Part shown: piece after piece, positions 57,814 to 64,000 of the stretch
How positions within the stretch are numbered: position 1 is the first letter of the stretch
How the letters are laid out: every line of letters starts with the position of its first letter
Origin: [Limnothrix rosea] IAM M-220
GTDB taxonomy: Bacteria; Cyanobacteriota; Cyanobacteriia; Cyanobacteriales; MRBY01
DNA length: 64,000 nt
Direction of reading: 5' to 3'
NCBI RefSeq assembly: GCF_001904615.1
Contig: NZ_MRBY01000011.1
Location: forward strand, 1 to 64,000
Notes under the pieces: generated by a model
What the model was told of the DNA's origin: nothing
Database searches by the model: none
Seen by the model: only the letters and a program-made list of their open reading frames with translations
Translations under genes and position numbers: made by a program

Positions 57814-58893
57814 TTAGATCGAGCGGTGGCGGCGTAAAATAATGGCCATGACAATGGGTGCACCGAAAAGGGCTGTCACGGTATTGAGCGGTAACGTGAG
57901 TTGGCTACCGGGCAGCTGGGCGATGATGTCGGCGAGGAGGGCAAGGCTGGCTCCCATGAGGGCGATCGCCGGAATGAGCAGGCGATGATTAACGGTTTTG
58001 AGCAAATAGCGACAGAGGTGGGGAACCGCTAAGCCAATAAAGGAAATCGGGCCACAAAATGCCGTGACAGTCCCCGATAAAATAGCGGTACTAATGATAA
58101 TTTGGCGACGGGTTTTTCTAATATTTAAACCCAAGCTTTGGGCATATTGTTTGCCTAATAAAAGGACATTTAAAGCCTTGGCTGAACAGTAGGCCATAAT
58201 GCCACCCAAAAAAATCAAAATCGAAAAAATTGGTAACTGCTCCCGCTGAATTTGAGCGAAACTACCAAATGTCCAACTAAGATAAAGACGCATGGCTTCA
58301 CTAGGGCTAAAATGCAGCAGCATTGTGACTAAAGAATTACTGACATAGCCTAACATTAATCCCAAAATTAATAGGGTGGCATGGTGGGGAACGCGGCGGG
58401 CGATCGCCAACACTAAACTCAATACGGCGATCGCACCCAAACTGGCGGCAAGGGCAATACTAAAACTACCCACGACACCGCCAACAAAACCACTGCCGAG
58501 AATGACAAGGGCAACGCCCAAACCTGCACCAGAGTTGATGCCCAGCACAAAGGGTCCCGCTAGGGGATTATTAAATAAAGTCTGCATTTGAATGCCGCCA
58601 ATCCCTAAAGCAGCTCCAGCAAAAGTGGCGGCGATCGCCCGGGGAAATCGCAGTTGCCAGATGATTTGTTGCCAAACTTCCGTTGATTCAGTCGGTCGAA
58701 AAAAAATGATTTCCAACACATGATGCATCGGAATCGTGACAGAACCCAAACATAAACTGACGCTAAACAAACAAAACCATAGGCCTATTAATCCCCCTAA
58801 AATTCCCATATAGGAAGAAGATCGCCACTGTAATAAATTAACTAAAACTGTTAGCTGACGAACAAAAAAAGATTGTTGGAGCGGGACTTTCAC
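57814..58893 (-). CDS. btuC: FecCD/BtuC-type ABC transporter permease
   Basis: Membrane permease of 359 aa with about ten TM helices. Family motifs include WQLRFPRAIAATFAGAALGIGGIQMQTLFNNPLAGPFVLGINSGAGLG (by position about residues 80-127), GLMLGYVSNSL, SWTFGSF, and CGPISFIGLAVPHLCRYL, the EAA-like ATPase contact. Iron-siderophore and vitamin B12 permeases share this fold; the riboswitch and operon partners point to cobalamin. It starts 6 bases downstream of the binding-protein gene. No ATPase gene (btuD) follows in the window. Confidence 0.9.
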   Translation of the reverse strand: MKVPLQQSFFVRQLTVLVNLLQWRSSSYMGILGGLIGLWFCLFSVSLCLGSVTIPMHHVLEIIFFRPTESTEVWQQIIWQLRFPRAIAATFAGAALGIGGIQMQTLFNNPLAGPFVLGINSGAGLGVALVILGSGFVGGVVGSFSIALAASLGAIAVLSLVLAIARRVPHHATLLILGLMLGYVSNSLVTMLLHFSPSEAMRLYLSWTFGSFAQIQREQLPIFSILIFLGGIMAYCSAKALNVLLLGKQYAQSLGLNIRKTRRQIIISTAILSGTVTAFCGPISFIGLAVPHLCRYLLKTVNHRLLIPAIALMGASLALLADIIAQLPGSQLTLPLNTVTALFGAPIVMAIILRRHRSI

Positions 58894-58898
58894 AAAGA

Positions 58899-60155
58899 TT
58901 AATCAAGTTGACGATAATAAAAAAGATCGTGGTCGGGTAATAATTCTGGATGGAAAATTTTAATCAGATCAGCAAGGATAATATCTGGATTTGTTGTGCC
59001 ACTTTCCCAAAAATCATTGCCCCCTTCGGGATTGAGGCGGGCGTTGGCAATATAAACTTGCTTGGTTTGACTCGCCTTTAACAGGTCGTAGCGACGATCT
59101 TCCCTGAGTAAATCGGCTTTTGTGCGCCAGTCTTGGTTGGGATTTAGCCAAAAATCAGCGTCTTTTGCCTTTGCTAAAACGGCTTCGTAGTCGAGGGGTA
59201 AACTGAGGCGCGAATCGGAATCTTGCCAGAGATAATCTGCCCCGGCATCCCGGAAAAATTGTGCGACATAGCTTTTCCCGGCGGGCATATACCAAACGCC
59301 TTGAAAGGGGGAGCCACTAAATGCTGTCGGTAACTCTGTCAGTGTCGCCGTTTTATTGACTAGCTCTTGGTAACGTTGGGCGATCGCCGCAAATTCTTGA
59401 TTTGCTTTGGCTTCTTGATTAAACAATAATGCCGTAAATTTGAGCCATTCCGCGCGACCGAGGGGCGTTGATTCGAGGTGGGCAGCATCAAGCACAATAG
59501 TTTGCTCAAGGGATTTTAGGGTTTCGAAACGGCTATTTTCACCGTCATCGAGGCGATAACTTAAGATGACATCGGGTTGTAGATTTAAGACTTTTTCCGC
59601 GTCAGGTTGTAAATCGCCCACTTCTTGGATTGCTCCTGCGACGATTTTCTCGCGGATTACTTCGCTGTAAATTAGACGGCGATCGCCCACTCCGACTAGG
59701 GCATGGAGTTGCCCCAGCTTTTCGATGTGGGGCAAATAGGTAGTGGACATAGCCAAAACCCGTTGGCTCGGAATTTCAACGATAGTTGCCTCAGGATAAT
59801 GGGTCGGTGCAGGTGTGCCACATTGGACAAAAACATAGTTTAAATCGACAGCGGCTTCTTCCCAGGGCTGTTTGACTGTGACGAGCTTGTAGTTGGGATG
59901 ATACTCGACAGTAAATCCTTGGGCATAATACGGCTCAACTTTTTCTGGAAAATAGTCAACAGTGGCATCGAACTCCTCAACGCAATGGTCATGGGCACTC
60001 AGGGTTGGTTTTTCTGTTGCTGACTGGCAAGCTGATAATAAAATGCCAAAACTAATAATAATTAAAGCCGTTTTAGAAGGCCAAAAATATTGTTGCTTTG
60101 GAATCAGTAATTGAGGCGATCGCCAACATTTTAAAAATGTAAAACTTAAAACCAT
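58899..60155 (-). CDS. btuF: BtuF-like periplasmic substrate-binding lipoprotein
   Basis: Solute-binding protein of 418 aa. An N-terminal signal ends in the lipobox LLSAC (near residues 40-44). The clamshell binding fold shows QRVLAMSTTYLPHIEKLGQL, EVGDLQPDAEKVLNLQPDVILSY (the ABC iron/B12-binding family signature), and VYIANARLNPEGGNDFWE. It starts with ATG overlapping the end of the phosphoesterase gene by 10 bases, so the two are translationally coupled. Cobalamin is the inferred ligand, from the riboswitch; a siderophore cannot be excluded from the protein sequence alone. Confidence 0.85.
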   Translation of the reverse strand: MVLSFTFLKCWRSPQLLIPKQQYFWPSKTALIIISFGILLSACQSATEKPTLSAHDHCVEEFDATVDYFPEKVEPYYAQGFTVEYHPNYKLVTVKQPWEEAAVDLNYVFVQCGTPAPTHYPEATIVEIPSQRVLAMSTTYLPHIEKLGQLHALVGVGDRRLIYSEVIREKIVAGAIQEVGDLQPDAEKVLNLQPDVILSYRLDDGENSRFETLKSLEQTIVLDAAHLESTPLGRAEWLKFTALLFNQEAKANQEFAAIAQRYQELVNKTATLTELPTAFSGSPFQGVWYMPAGKSYVAQFFRDAGADYLWQDSDSRLSLPLDYEAVLAKAKDADFWLNPNQDWRTKADLLREDRRYDLLKASQTKQVYIANARLNPEGGNDFWESGTTNPDIILADLIKIFHPELLPDHDLFYYRQLD

Positions 60156-60910
60156 TGAATGCGCTGTACCTCCGTCGTAACTGCTCCATTATCTTTAAGG
60201 TCAATTACTCTAAATCCCGGTTGTTGCCAAAGCTGAATTTCGCCTTCGATCTCCCTACAGTGGGCTGGAGTGACCTGTGTGCAGGTGGCAGGAGTCCCGA
60301 AAAAATAAATGCCATTTTGCCTCACCGTCAGCTGATGGTGGATATGTCCAAAACAAACAACTTTTACTTGGGGATATTGTCTGATTATCTCGTGAAAAGC
60401 TGACGAATTTAAAACAGACATTTGTTCTAGCCAATCAATGCCGGTATCGACGGGGTGGTGATGCAGGGCGATCGCCGTTGGTTTTCCCCTATGGGCGTTA
60501 AGTTTATCTACGAGCCAATCAAGTTCTGTTTTTGCCAAAGTCCCTTCACCATATTGAGCATTTTCTAGGCAAGAATTTAAGAGAATAAAACACCAATTTT
60601 TGTGCTGAAAACACTTTTGCGCATGAAGATATTGGCTGGATAATGCAGACTGCATCCGCTGAAAATTATCATGATTTCCCGGTAGCCAGTAAGCCGGAAT
60701 TTTCGTCTGATCAATTAAATTTTTGAGGTGTTCATAGGCTGCTTTTTCACCATTGTGGGCTAAATCTCCAGTTAAAAGAATTAGTTCCGGTACTACTTTT
60801 TTTACTGTCTTTAAAACTTTTTCTAGTGAGTACCAAGTTTGGACACCTCTCATGGCATCTTCCTTATCAGCAAGGAGGTGAGTATCTGTGATTTGGGCAA
60901 TTTTGACCAT
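60146..60910 (-). CDS. cpdA: CpdA-like calcineurin-type metallophosphoesterase
   Basis: Binuclear metallophosphoesterase of 254 aa. All five family motifs are visible: DTHLL (Asp, His), LLTGDLAHNG (GDxxxxG), LPGNHDNF (GNHD), HHHP (GHxH-like, here ALHHHPVD) and FGHIHHQ. A TTG upstream at 60934 is open, but the ATG at 60910 (MVKIAQITDTH) is the family start. The closest type is the class III cAMP phosphodiesterase CpdA. Its place between the TonB receptor and btuF under a B12 riboswitch suggests a role in cobalamin use, perhaps dephosphorylation, but no substrate is known to me. Confidence 0.88.
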   Translation of the reverse strand: MVKIAQITDTHLLADKEDAMRGVQTWYSLEKVLKTVKKVVPELILLTGDLAHNGEKAAYEHLKNLIDQTKIPAYWLPGNHDNFQRMQSALSSQYLHAQKCFQHKNWCFILLNSCLENAQYGEGTLAKTELDWLVDKLNAHRGKPTAIALHHHPVDTGIDWLEQMSVLNSSAFHEIIRQYPQVKVVCFGHIHHQLTVRQNGIYFFGTPATCTQVTPAHCREIEGEIQLWQQPGFRVIDLKDNGAVTTEVQRIQWF

Positions 60911-60978
60911 GTTATTTAACCCAGAGAAAATCAAGTGCCACTCACCATGCTAGCAAGTGACATTTTGACGATTTTTAC

Positions 60979-62982
60979 TTAGCGAAACGTTGCATTAACG
61001 CCAATTTGGAAGCGACTGCCGACACCGGGAAAATCTCCAGAGAAACCAGAAAAAGTAATGTAGTCCTCTGCGAGGATATTTTCCCAACTAGCTGTGAGAT
61101 TAACATTGTCAGTAATCGCGTAACGGGTACGAAGATCAACCGTTGTATAGGATTCTAGAGATGCTGTATTGGTGTTATTGGTTAGGCGATCGCCAACATG
61201 TTTGACAAAAAGTCCAGCATAAAAACCCTGTGGATTTTCATAGGCAATACCAATGTTAAAAAAATCAGTGCCCGCAAATCTCACTTCATTACCGATCACT
61301 GAAGCATTCGAATCCTCAAGAATCTTAGAGTTATTCATTGTGTAATTAGCAAACGCATACACCGAATTTGACAATTGGACAGTAAGTTCAGCTTCTAATC
61401 CTTGGTTACGGGCTTTACCTAAGTTAAAAGGTGTAAAGGTTGGGTCTAAAACAATGGCATCATCAATCGTGTTGTTAAAATACGTTAAACGGAGCAAAGC
61501 ATTGCGACCAAACTTTTGATCAATACCAATATCAAAGCTATTGCCAATTTCAGGTTTTAAATTGGGGTTTGCACTGCCGGGAAAAAATAAATCGGTAGAA
61601 GTGGGGGTACGAAAGTTCCGTGCATAATTAGCTCGGATACTTGTGTTTTCTCCTGCTTGCCACAGTAGACCGGCACTTGGGGAGGTAAAGGATCCTTCAG
61701 CCAAGCTGTTGAAATCTTGTCTTAAACCAAGAGTTGTTGTGAGTTCTGGCGTTATTCCGGCAGTATAGTTGGCAAAAATTGCCCCTTGACTTAAGTTGCC
61801 GTCATATAAAGTCCCAAAGGCATTTTTCGCGACGATGTCTTCAGAACGGTAATCAAAGCCGTAGGTGATATTTTGATTTTTTGCAAATTGCCAATTGTGC
61901 TGAATTTGTCCCCCAAAAGATTCATTTTCAGTGATAAAGGTGAAGGGGAAAGGACCCGCTGGATTTTTATCTAGATTATCTGCAAAATCTGCAAAAATTC
62001 TCGTGATTAATGTGGAGTCATCACCATTTCCTAAGCGTGAGTCTAACTGGAGTGAAAGTAACCAATTTTCCACTTCAGCAAATTGCTCAAGGGCTGGGTT
62101 GGGAAAGCCTCCCGGCACACCAATATCTTTGTCTGTGTAAAGACCGTTAAAGCTGAGTTTATGGCGATCGCCGAGTAGACTTGTCGCTTGAAAATTGAGA
62201 TTTTGAATCTCTGCTTGGGCATTTTCCCTAGTACCAGATAAACCCAAATTTTCTAATTTAAAATCAAAATCATTTTCTGCTGCAGTGCGATTATAAGCGA
62301 GACGAACTGTAGATTTTTCACCACCATAATTAACCGCAACTTCTTGGTTGTTGTAGCCTAGTGTGCCGATTTCACCGCCAATTGTTGCGCTCCATCCCCC
62401 ATTCAATTCAGGCTGACGGGTGACAATATTAATAACACCACCGATTGCACTAGAACCGAATAAAGTCGAACTGCCGCCAGGCAGTAACTCGATGCGCTCA
62501 ACGTTGCTAGTGGTTAAATTTGAAAGATCAAATGTCCCTACATTAAAAGTATTAATGGGACGACCATCAAGCAAGATCAGAGTTTGAGAATTTGAATTAG
62601 CGCCCCTGAGTATCTGGGCACTCTGTGCGCCAAGCTGAACTCCTGCGGTACTGTCAACAAAAACGCCGGGAAAATATTTCAAAGCTTCATTGACAGTGCG
62701 ATAGCCTTGAGCTTCGATCTGTTCACGATTGATTACATATGCGGGGCGGCTAGAATCTTGGACGGTTCCTTCTTGACGGAAAGGTGCGTAAATGGGTTGG
62801 TTAAGAATTTCATCGATAATCGAAAACTCGAAATCGAAGTTCTCTGCTTCATTGATGGGAATAATCTGGACTCCTTCTGGGGTCTCATCAACTAGAATTT
62901 CTGGGGTTTCGGTCTGGGCGATCGCCGCGACATTACTTGCTACAAGAATAAGAGTCGCAAGGGGTAAAGATTTGATTTTCAT
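60979..62982 (-). CDS. btuB: TonB-dependent outer-membrane receptor (BtuB-like)
   Basis: Outer-membrane active transporter of 667 aa. A signal peptide (LPLATLILVASNVAAIAQ) is followed by a short acidic segment, a plug domain (about residues 75-190: YVINREQIEAQGYRTVNEALKYFPGV, ILRGANSNSQTLILLDGRPIN, and VERIELLPGGSSTLFGSSAIGGVINIVT by position) and a 22-strand barrel ending in the terminal aromatic motif NATFR. There is no N-terminal STN signalling domain, so it is not a FecA-type transducer. It heads the operon behind a cobalamin riboswitch, so B12 is the inferred cargo. Confidence 0.9.
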   Translation of the reverse strand: MKIKSLPLATLILVASNVAAIAQTETPEILVDETPEGVQIIPINEAENFDFEFSIIDEILNQPIYAPFRQEGTVQDSSRPAYVINREQIEAQGYRTVNEALKYFPGVFVDSTAGVQLGAQSAQILRGANSNSQTLILLDGRPINTFNVGTFDLSNLTTSNVERIELLPGGSSTLFGSSAIGGVINIVTRQPELNGGWSATIGGEIGTLGYNNQEVAVNYGGEKSTVRLAYNRTAAENDFDFKLENLGLSGTRENAQAEIQNLNFQATSLLGDRHKLSFNGLYTDKDIGVPGGFPNPALEQFAEVENWLLSLQLDSRLGNGDDSTLITRIFADFADNLDKNPAGPFPFTFITENESFGGQIQHNWQFAKNQNITYGFDYRSEDIVAKNAFGTLYDGNLSQGAIFANYTAGITPELTTTLGLRQDFNSLAEGSFTSPSAGLLWQAGENTSIRANYARNFRTPTSTDLFFPGSANPNLKPEIGNSFDIGIDQKFGRNALLRLTYFNNTIDDAIVLDPTFTPFNLGKARNQGLEAELTVQLSNSVYAFANYTMNNSKILEDSNASVIGNEVRFAGTDFFNIGIAYENPQGFYAGLFVKHVGDRLTNNTNTASLESYTTVDLRTRYAITDNVNLTASWENILAEDYITFSGFSGDFPGVGSRFQIGVNATFR

Positions 62983-63252
62983 TAATACAGAATAGAAGCT
63001 AAATATTGATTTTTGACTAGGGCATTCCGACTCACCTAAAACATCTTTTTCACCTAAGCTCTAAATAGAACAAAAGTAAAAAAAACGAGATGATAAAAGA
63101 AAAATAAAGATAAAATTCTAAATGTTTCTGGAATTAAAAACGACAGCAGAAACGCGATTCAGAATCATAAATTGTCAAAAAAAGTCGTACTTGCAATGGC
63201 ATGCAATAAGAGTATTTCATCCGTACCTCGCAGATGGGAATAAATAATATGT
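62983..63252 (-). promoter_or_regulatory. leader between B12 riboswitch and btuB (expression platform region)
   Basis: About 270 bases of untranslated leader on the minus strand. Right after the aptamer (63176-63212) there is a TTGCA / TGCAA hairpin followed, six bases later, by seven T residues, which could be a weak intrinsic terminator formed when cobalamin binds. I cannot show the competing antiterminator by eye. Confidence 0.4.
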
Positions 63253-63395
63253 ATGGGTCTCTCGGCGGGCATCCTGACTTAGAAGCTAGCATCGCTAATC
63301 TTCCTTACAGTTGCGGGACAGTGACGGATTTGCACCGTGCTTTCCCCTTTACTTTTGCCGACTGATCCTCGACAAAACCGATGAAGCCATTATTA
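63253..63395 (-). ncRNA. cobalamin (AdoCbl) riboswitch
   Basis: On the minus strand the aptamer has the highly conserved core of the cobalamin family: GGGGAAAGCACGGTGCAAAT, TCCGTCACTGTCCCGCAACT, GTAAGGAAGATTAGCGATGC and the closing AAGTCAGGATGCCCGCCGAG (B12-box region and P1/P2 arms). It lies upstream of the TonB receptor gene, in the same orientation, at 271 bases from its ATG. Binding of cobalamin should switch the uptake operon off. This is one of the most secure non-coding calls in the window. Confidence 0.95.
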
Positions 63396-63581
63396 TACAG
63401 TAGGCGATCGCCTTTTTTTGAAAATCCCAGTTTAAGAGAGATGTAGAAGCGAAATATTTTTTCTCTAAATAAATCGCCACCTTCATTAAATATAAAAAAA
63501 CATCAGATCCTTTTATCGAAATCAATCATGCCAGATTGAAACCATTTGCTCTTTAGACTAGATACCAAACTATTATTAAAA
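63396..63581. other. region between the riboswitch and the EAL gene
   Basis: Holds the promoter of the B12 operon (minus strand, upstream of the aptamer) and the 3' end of the EAL gene. A HIP1 site is at about 63404-63411. No terminator with a clear T run is seen for the EAL gene. Confidence 0.35.
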
Positions 63582-64000
63582 TTAGATTTTATCCCGTAGA
63601 AAATTCGGCACTTTTTTTCCCTCTAAAGGCCGACTAAACAAATAGCCCTGCGCCACATCACAACCTAATTGACGGAGCATCTGAACTTGTTCTACCGTTT
63701 CTACGCCTTCCGCAATAATGCCATGGCCTAGATTATGTCCCATATCAATCATTGACCTCAATAAAACTTGAGATTTGCGATCAATAGCCATGTCGTCAAT
63801 AAAATATTTATCAAGCTTGAGATAGTCTACGGTGAGATGTTTTAAAGAGGCAAAGGATGAAAAACCCGTACCAAAGTCGTCAATGGCAATGGAAACACCT
63901 AAACTTTTTAGCTGCTGGAAAACTTCTAGGTTTTTAGGATTTGTTTGGACAACGCTTTCTGTCACTTCTAAATTTAAATGTTTGGCCTTTATTTTTGTCT
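63582..64000 (-). CDS. EAL-domain protein, C-terminal part (runs off the window)
   Basis: The frame is open through the right edge, so only the C-terminal 139 or so residues are seen. They are the second half of an EAL phosphodiesterase domain: KAKHLNLEVTESVVQ, IAIDDFGTGFSSFASLKHL, YLKLDKYFID, IIAEGVETVEQV and GYLFSRPLE. The DDFGTG loop and the Lys, Glu and Gln residues of the active site are present, so it is probably an active c-di-GMP phosphodiesterase or the tail of a GGDEF-EAL protein. Upstream domains are outside the window. Confidence 0.92.
   Translation of the reverse strand, partial: TKIKAKHLNLEVTESVVQTNPKNLEVFQQLKSLGVSIAIDDFGTGFSSFASLKHLTVDYLKLDKYFIDDMAIDRKSQVLLRSMIDMGHNLGHGIIAEGVETVEQVQMLRQLGCDVAQGYLFSRPLEGKKVPNFLRDKI

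Follow-up and report, generated by a model that had tools for sequence, protein, structure and literature searches.

A cobalamin uptake operon of [Limnothrix rosea] IAM M-220 and the short open reading frame in its riboswitch leader

We describe a cobalamin (vitamin B12) uptake operon of the cyanobacterium [Limnothrix rosea] IAM M-220, located in a window of 64,000 nucleotides (contig NZ_MRBY01000011.1, positions 1 to 64,000 of the forward strand). It is of the btuB-cpdA-btuF-btuC type, a new member of a known operon type, and it follows a cobalamin riboswitch. We think it rather probable that the operon serves a scavenging user of MetH that holds MetE as a backup, and that the output of the riboswitch is indirect, by way of a short open reading frame (ORF) in the leader; the uptake system is thus a known one, and the expression platform is apparently undescribed. 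The source genome (4.07 Mb, 92 contigs) is rated 100% complete; the family sample comprises six genomes, all of a single genus, and scores are judged against the Rfam gathering score and the Pfam and NCBIfam model cut-offs.

The operon and its leader

A cobalamin aptamer had been proposed ahead of the operon by a first-pass annotation of the sequence, and the covariance model bears it out: RF00174 matches over its full length at 63247..63397 on the minus strand, scoring 67.1 bits (E 2.1e-14; gathering score 31.5), and there is a match ahead of the operon in all six genus genomes. A TATAAT on the 5′ border of the aptamer match (63392..63397, minus strand) is invariant in the six genus leaders and may be a -10 element. 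Alignment of these leaders reveals, soon after the aptamer, the sequence CATCTGCGAGGTACGGATG, identical in five of them and with three changes in G005, which as judged from the alignment and the predicted fold is a P13-like hairpin (P13-L13, 63218..63236, minus strand). Its L13 loop, UGCGAGG, is complementary to L5 (CCCGCA) and includes a GAGG 5 nt ahead of an ATG. This ATG, at 63220, opens a predicted leader ORF of 28 codons that the first-pass annotation did not list, MKYSYCMPLQVRLFLTIYDSESRFCCRF (63134..63220, minus strand), whose stop ends at 63134; it does not overlap the start of the receptor gene, which lies 151 nt further on. All ten genus leaders, six ahead of btuB and four ahead of metE, contain a leader ORF, of 21–38 codons.

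The four co-directional genes of the first-pass annotation are present as minus-strand ORFs, and the Pfam match of each product exceeds its cut-off. Behind the riboswitch they are, in order, a TonB-dependent receptor (btuB-like; 60979..62982, 667 aa, with Pfam barrel and plug), a CpdA-like class III phosphodiesterase (60146..60934, 262 aa, Metallophos), a periplasmic binding protein (btuF-like; 58899..60155, 418 aa, Peripla_BP_2) and a FecCD permease (btuC-like; 57814..58893, 359 aa, FecCD), and the order is identical in the six genus genomes. The tight packing holds with one correction: the 10-base overlap is exact, and the gap between binding protein and permease is five bases rather than six. 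The phosphodiesterase may in fact start at the ATG at 60910 instead of at the mechanically chosen TTG at 60934, because its relatives begin MV(R/L)IAQ.

None of the four proteins reaches the cut-off of an NCBIfam BtuB, BtuC, BtuF or CpdA model. The receptor scores 168.6 bits with the TonB-B12 model TIGR01779 (cut-off 599.7) and higher, at 183.0, with a siderophore model, both under cut-off; the permease scores 214.4 bits with the BtuC model PRK03784 (cut-off 334), although this is its best NCBIfam match; the phosphodiesterase scores 208.6 bits with the CpdA model PRK11148 (cut-off 225); and the binding protein has no BtuF-model match, its sole NCBIfam match being IsdE at 19.6 bits. The names therefore rest on the riboswitch, the gene order and the precedent of Synechococcus PCC 7002. 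In that cobalamin auxotroph a btuB-cpdA-btuC-btuF operon is reported to be riboswitch-regulated (PMC8123684, citing Perez, Rodionov and Bryant 2016, doi 10.1128/JB.00476-16), and a transport role of its btu genes to have been demonstrated (PMC5668215). The likeness drawn in the first-pass annotation stands, as far as the accessible parts of these two papers reach: both operons combine the same four kinds of gene with a cobalamin riboswitch and without a btuD. They differ in that PCC 7002 is listed with metH and no metE, whereas the genome of the window adds a riboswitch-controlled metE, and in that the same accessible parts do not mention a leader ORF. In the Btu system of Anabaena sp. PCC 7120, a cobalamin riboswitch, btuB2, btuF and btuC likewise belong to one transcript, but the cluster contains btuD and a ferredoxin-like gene, and no phosphoesterase is named in the text available (PMC10878165).

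Two neighbourhood observations may be added. Btu clusters of other families have a DUF7676 protein between the receptor and the binding protein (L133:6194-7066, L141:3136-4017 and L148:3321-4208), and the window operon has no gene of this kind at that position. Upstream of the riboswitch, on the same strand, lies an ORF that we named EAL-like by eye (63582-63998) and that continues past the window end.

Leader open reading frames and the working of the switch

RF00174 matches occur in 182 of the 194 genomes of the class. We surveyed the first 63 listed rows (60 new and three already in the sample), and the 60, with 16 leaders collected before, give 76 leaders. An L13 loop complementary to L5 is present in 71 of these, and the L5 base facing the last base of L13 is a C with a G in 69 leaders and an A with a T in two, those of G188 and G027, which belong to one genus. 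The successive pairs of the P13 stem are formed in 71, 68, 59, 48 and 23 of the 71 leaders, and the stem is 76% paired at the correct register as against 22–60% when it is slid. These patterns point to an L5-L13 kissing loop, which is reported as an established feature of cobalamin riboswitches (PMC9600662).

The leaders were classified mechanically in two passes (49 short-ORF, 23 direct and four without motif in the first; 47, 24 and five in the second), of which we use the second: the start codon behind the hairpin opens a long gene in 24 leaders and a short ORF in 47, and five lack the motif. Of the 24 direct genes, the two tested proved to be CbiM and HupE/UreJ; in G008 it is the receptor gene itself that is opened. 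By eye we set aside from the 47 five CbtB-like ORFs (the one tested scored 25.5, slightly under the cut-off of 27) and L193, which has a broken btuB, leaving 41. The short-ORF type accounts for all 15 leaders in which MetE is the next long ORF and for 10 of the 12 btuB leaders with the hairpin; two metE genes fall outside the 15, L242, where another ORF comes first, and L132 in G099, where the motif is absent.

In each of these 25 metE and btuB leaders an ATG (23) or GTG (two) lies 5–8 nt behind the Shine-Dalgarno sequence, against a background of 8.5%, and each leader ORF has at least 18 codons, where a first-order Markov null gives 12.2 ± 2.5 such leaders and a maximum of 21 in 2000 runs; with near-duplicates removed the count is 19 of 19, against 9.1 ± 2.1 and a maximum of 16. 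A range of 19–40 codons, set post hoc after inspection of the data, contains 24 of the 25 (null 7.0 ± 2.3, maximum 15 of 1000). Frame 0 exceeds frame +2 in length (p 0.005, 25 leaders), and frame +1 is mostly ended at once because ATGATG contains TGA. In eight of nine leader pairs the ORF is less changed than its 3′ flank (205/852 vs 375/1020 sites), and in the six pairs pooled first the changes by codon position are 28/34/50 (p 0.008). In the 25 leaders there are at least 58 nt from the ORF to the gene, with a median of 193 nt. As far as these sequence comparisons go, metE and btuB leaders retain a start codon with an open stretch behind it beyond chance.

In the reading we prefer, the uptake operon and metE both stand behind class-I cobalamin riboswitches, and B12 would switch both off. 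With corrinoid bound, L5 would kiss L13 and so hide the Shine-Dalgarno sequence of the leader ORF, which would not be translated; without corrinoid, ribosomes would translate it, and a ribosome on the leader ORF would avert a premature ending of the transcript, or its decay, allowing expression of the operon. This last step is proposed because the receptor starts so far past the leader stop and because cyanobacteria are reported to have no Rho (PMC13289151), so that Rho-dependent polarity would be unavailable; reinitiation at the receptor across 151 nt seems unlikely. The switch of PCC 7002 is described in the papers, as far as available, as a transcriptional attenuator or terminator, in keeping with this reading. 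The aptamer, the L5-L13 complementarity, the start codon and an open frame beyond chance are seen in the sequence; that the leader is translated, that B12 represses this translation and that operon transcription is coupled to it are inferred. The two leaders of G188 and G027 illustrate how such coupling might look: the last part of the ORF pairs as the 5′ arm of a hairpin, of -23.4 and -17.6 kcal/mol respectively, that has the stop inside it and a T run after it, and a ribosome at the ORF end would block this terminator-like structure. The window leader has an A+T-rich hairpin of putative role, with the leader stop in its loop and a T-rich tail (63114..63166, minus strand, -12.7 kcal/mol). In direct leaders the hairpin bears the Shine-Dalgarno sequence of the gene itself, and L5-L13 kissing would block its translation. 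For cyanobacteria at large we put at about even the chance that metE and btuB riboswitches mostly gate a leader ORF of some 18–38 codons that decides read-through by RNA polymerase without Rho, and that in other genes, such as the cbiM and hupE types, this hairpin serves directly as the ribosome binding site of the gene, one module thus having two outputs.

A number of observations weigh against the leader ORF as the relay. Two btuB leaders lack one (G008 and, by eye, L193), and strictly the count of long ORFs is 24 of 25, the nearest ATG in G167 giving a single codon and its GTG having been chosen by hand; the remaining 16 short-ORF leaders are weaker (13 of 16, against 7.5 ± 2.0 and a maximum of 14), and frame +2 is likewise open for at least 19 codons in 10 of the 25. 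Among the nine pairs, one has slightly more change inside the ORF and one has an indel that is not a multiple of three; the low change could also stem from RNA structure. There is no excess of third-position changes in the other three pairs (32/33/28), and over all nine the counts are 60/67/78 (p 0.09), so that we see no firm sign of constraint on the peptide, and by eye the peptides are dissimilar between clades. The overlap of the ORF with a strong terminator-like hairpin is clear only in the two leaders mentioned, of one genus. In the window leader a terminator scan gave no site where 0.5 are expected by chance, and the fold is no better than that of shuffles (z-score -0.21); a separate hairpin search for a canonical terminator there found A+T-rich hairpins only. 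Finally, the need to pair with L5 accounts in part for the GAGG of L13.

That last point also suits a different account, which takes the leader ORF for a passive relic: the need to kiss L5 would preserve L13, and regulation would come from an undetected terminator or from RNA stability, with no need of leader translation. The unconserved look of the peptides fits it too, as do the A+T-rich hairpins with T-rich tails that several leaders have between the leader ORF and the gene, and the report that intrinsic terminators were predicted for 37 of the 38 functional cobalamin riboswitches assayed in B. subtilis (PMC9600662). Against it stand the correctly spaced start codon in every one of the 25 leaders, the ORF lengths that exceed the null, and the 24 of 71 motif-bearing leaders in which the same hairpin and start codon open the gene itself, and we hold this account to be possible but doubtful. 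That the product is a small protein, or a stalling peptide, with a regulatory role of its own seems improbable: close relatives do keep the peptide nearly unchanged (L241 and L248 differ at 5/96 sites, G002 and G003 at 4/99), but by eye no peptide is common to the clades, and the third-position excess over the nine pairs is weak. Least probable is an operon for iron or heme with B12 not among its substrates. The failure of every operon protein to reach a B12-specific NCBIfam cut-off and the receptor's better siderophore score would agree with it, but the cobalamin riboswitch is there in all six genus genomes, riboswitch-linked relatives occur in other families, and the transport role reported for the PCC 7002 genes argues the other way.

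A system close to a riboswitch acting through a leader ORF is that of ppe2 in M. tuberculosis, where expression of the downstream gene is reported to require translation of an upstream ORF (uORF), and for which a class IIb variant has been proposed (PMC11260477). By sequence, the start region of the window's leader ORF sits in the L13 hairpin just as that of the ppe2 uORF does; the ppe2 uORF, however, is reported to overlap its gene by 4 nt and to work mainly by termination-reinitiation, in contrast to the gap of at least 58 nt, and the lack of Rho, in the present case. The M. tuberculosis Mbox also controls a short upstream ORF through a translational expression platform, but it senses Mg2+ and is reported to involve Rho-dependent termination (PMC12810186). 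Our literature search, thin on subscription journals, found no report of leader ORFs behind cyanobacterial cobalamin riboswitches. Among the other genes found behind cobalamin riboswitches with a leader ORF are, by eye, a fatty-acid-desaturase-like gene (L216, L233 and L238) and, several hundred bases past the riboswitch, one for a DUF1636 protein (L201, tested, and L247, by eye).

Vitamin B12 economy and the missing ATPase

From the operon it had been concluded that the organism imports B12 and probably depends on it, with the choice between metE and metH to be checked. The genome has both, metH at 1602.9 bits and metE at 959.4 bits, and the metE starts 498 nt past the aptamer of a second cobalamin riboswitch on another contig (RF00174, 49 bits). 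The presence of metH and the apparent absence of the corrin-ring methylases of de novo synthesis (the three proteins that PF00590 finds look, by eye, like SUMT, a SUMT-HemD fusion and RsmI) speak for dependence; a metE with its own riboswitch weakens it, and obligate dependence of the source genome is unsupported. By its genes the strain appears to be a facultative B12 user, in which B12 is probably used by MetH and spared by MetE, and MetE should replace MetH when B12 is lacking. Its ribonucleotide reductase is a class I NrdA (TIGR02506, 581.8 vs 341.05 bits); a class II enzyme (NrdJ) was considered and rejected, all TIGR02504 matches in the six genus genomes being under cut-off. A riboswitch-controlled metE was reportedly used by Perez and colleagues in 2016 to complement PCC 7002, a like case of a cobalamin riboswitch ahead of a cyanobacterial metE. 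A point in favour of dependence comes from strain PCC 11901, which is reported to require B12 despite having both metE and metH (PMC7205611), so that a metE may be silent.

Within the genus, metH is found in all six genomes, and metE in four, each time with an RF00174 match ahead of it. No metE match was found in G002 or G005, which fit obligate B12 dependence better. The metH of G005 is split into two overlapping pieces and contains one in-frame TGA (contig C22:8257-11756, L042 and L043), perhaps through an assembly error. Overlapping the end of metE in the source genome is a gene for a 150-aa protein without a Pfam match (L003:7442-7894, contig C7). In L204 a relative with 37% identity is the first long ORF after a cobalamin riboswitch, as is one in L237, judged by eye; this protein and its relatives are an unnamed family of the B12 regulon.

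The operon lacks an ATPase gene, as had been stated: there is none among its four ORFs. The search of the genome for a btuD, by contrast, did not yield the dedicated gene, with none of 59 BtuD-model matches over the cut-off. The best of them adjoins the only other FecCD permease over cut-off, and scores 269 bits with the FecE model, under the cut-off. It belongs to a heme-type locus (L022:4976-13984, contig C38) that begins about 8 kb from metH and contains a TonB-hemin receptor (405 bits, over cut-off), the FecCD permease, the FecE-like ATPase and an IsdE-like binding protein, together with TonB-family and TolQ/ExbB-like proteins below cut-off. A second candidate (191 bits, under cut-off) adjoins a fur-like gene, itself under the cut-off of the Fur models, and a Fur-like neighbour accompanies the equivalent ATPase in all five genomes where one is listed; G005 has no counterpart at E 1e-30. 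Across the genus, four of six genomes have a FecE-model match of about 270 bits, four of six have one of about 340 bits, and five of six have the Fur-side ATPase. A third candidate, on contig C37, proved to be LptB. On this evidence the ATPase for the permease is probably encoded elsewhere in the genome, the heme-locus and Fur-side ATPases being the candidates.

The phosphodiesterase clade and the B12 regulon

Relatives of the phosphodiesterase were found by protein search at E 1e-20 in 129 of the 194 genomes of the class. We took the surroundings of 60 of them (the best 57 after the G000 and G003 matches, and three second copies picked by hand, one in G099 and two in G014), scanned all 60 with Rfam, and built a tree of these and the six genus sequences (66 rows). 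The window protein falls in a clade of 17 rows (support 100/98), of which 12, six from the genus and six others, have an RF00174 match nearby, as against none of the 49 rows outside the clade, some of them shortened by contig ends. When rows are labelled as linked to B12 (13, including L148), the label needs 4 changes on the tree versus 12.1 in shuffles, with none of 500 as low; a single origin of the linkage was not recovered on this tree. Five of the six linked rows outside the genus lie in clusters of receptor, binding protein and permease, with the phosphodiesterase between binding protein and permease. Of the others in the clade, L148 lies in a rearranged cluster where RF00174 has no match; L131 adjoins a binding protein and a permease on the opposite strand, near a contig end; and the surroundings of L140, L169 and L172 show no B12 link. 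The remaining linked row, L132:3971-8195 in G099, has in this order a cobalamin riboswitch, a methyltransferase, metE and the CpdA-like phosphodiesterase, and no transport genes; G099 also has a second, unlinked copy (L171). Gene context thus links the clade to the B12 regulon, beyond transport alone.

The metal-site motifs D-x-H, GD, GNHD, HH and GHxH are present in the window protein and in 16 of the 17 clade rows (L172 exits a contig end), as expected of a class III enzyme; the regular expression, which was not tuned for rows outside the clade, matched 42 of the 66. Cyclic nucleotides are the default substrate of this phosphodiesterase family. It is speculative that the present enzyme cleaves the phosphodiester of corrinoids; since CobQ and CobS are reported in PCC 11901 (PMC7205611), processing of imported corrinoids by it would be possible. 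Among the papers listed, the literature search found cpdA in a cobalamin context only in PMC8123684.

These findings sort the members of the genus into those with and those without a metE backup, and they draw attention to a phosphodiesterase clade whose place in the B12 regulon calls for explanation. If the proposed role of the leader ORF is true, it would explain how a riboswitch that hides a ribosome binding site can alter transcript levels in bacteria without Rho, in which the ending of transcription is said to be poorly understood (PMC13289151), and B12-repressible expression tools for cyanobacteria would forfeit the leader ORF if their leader were cut back to the aptamer. The source strain itself, given its metE backup, may not strictly need B12.

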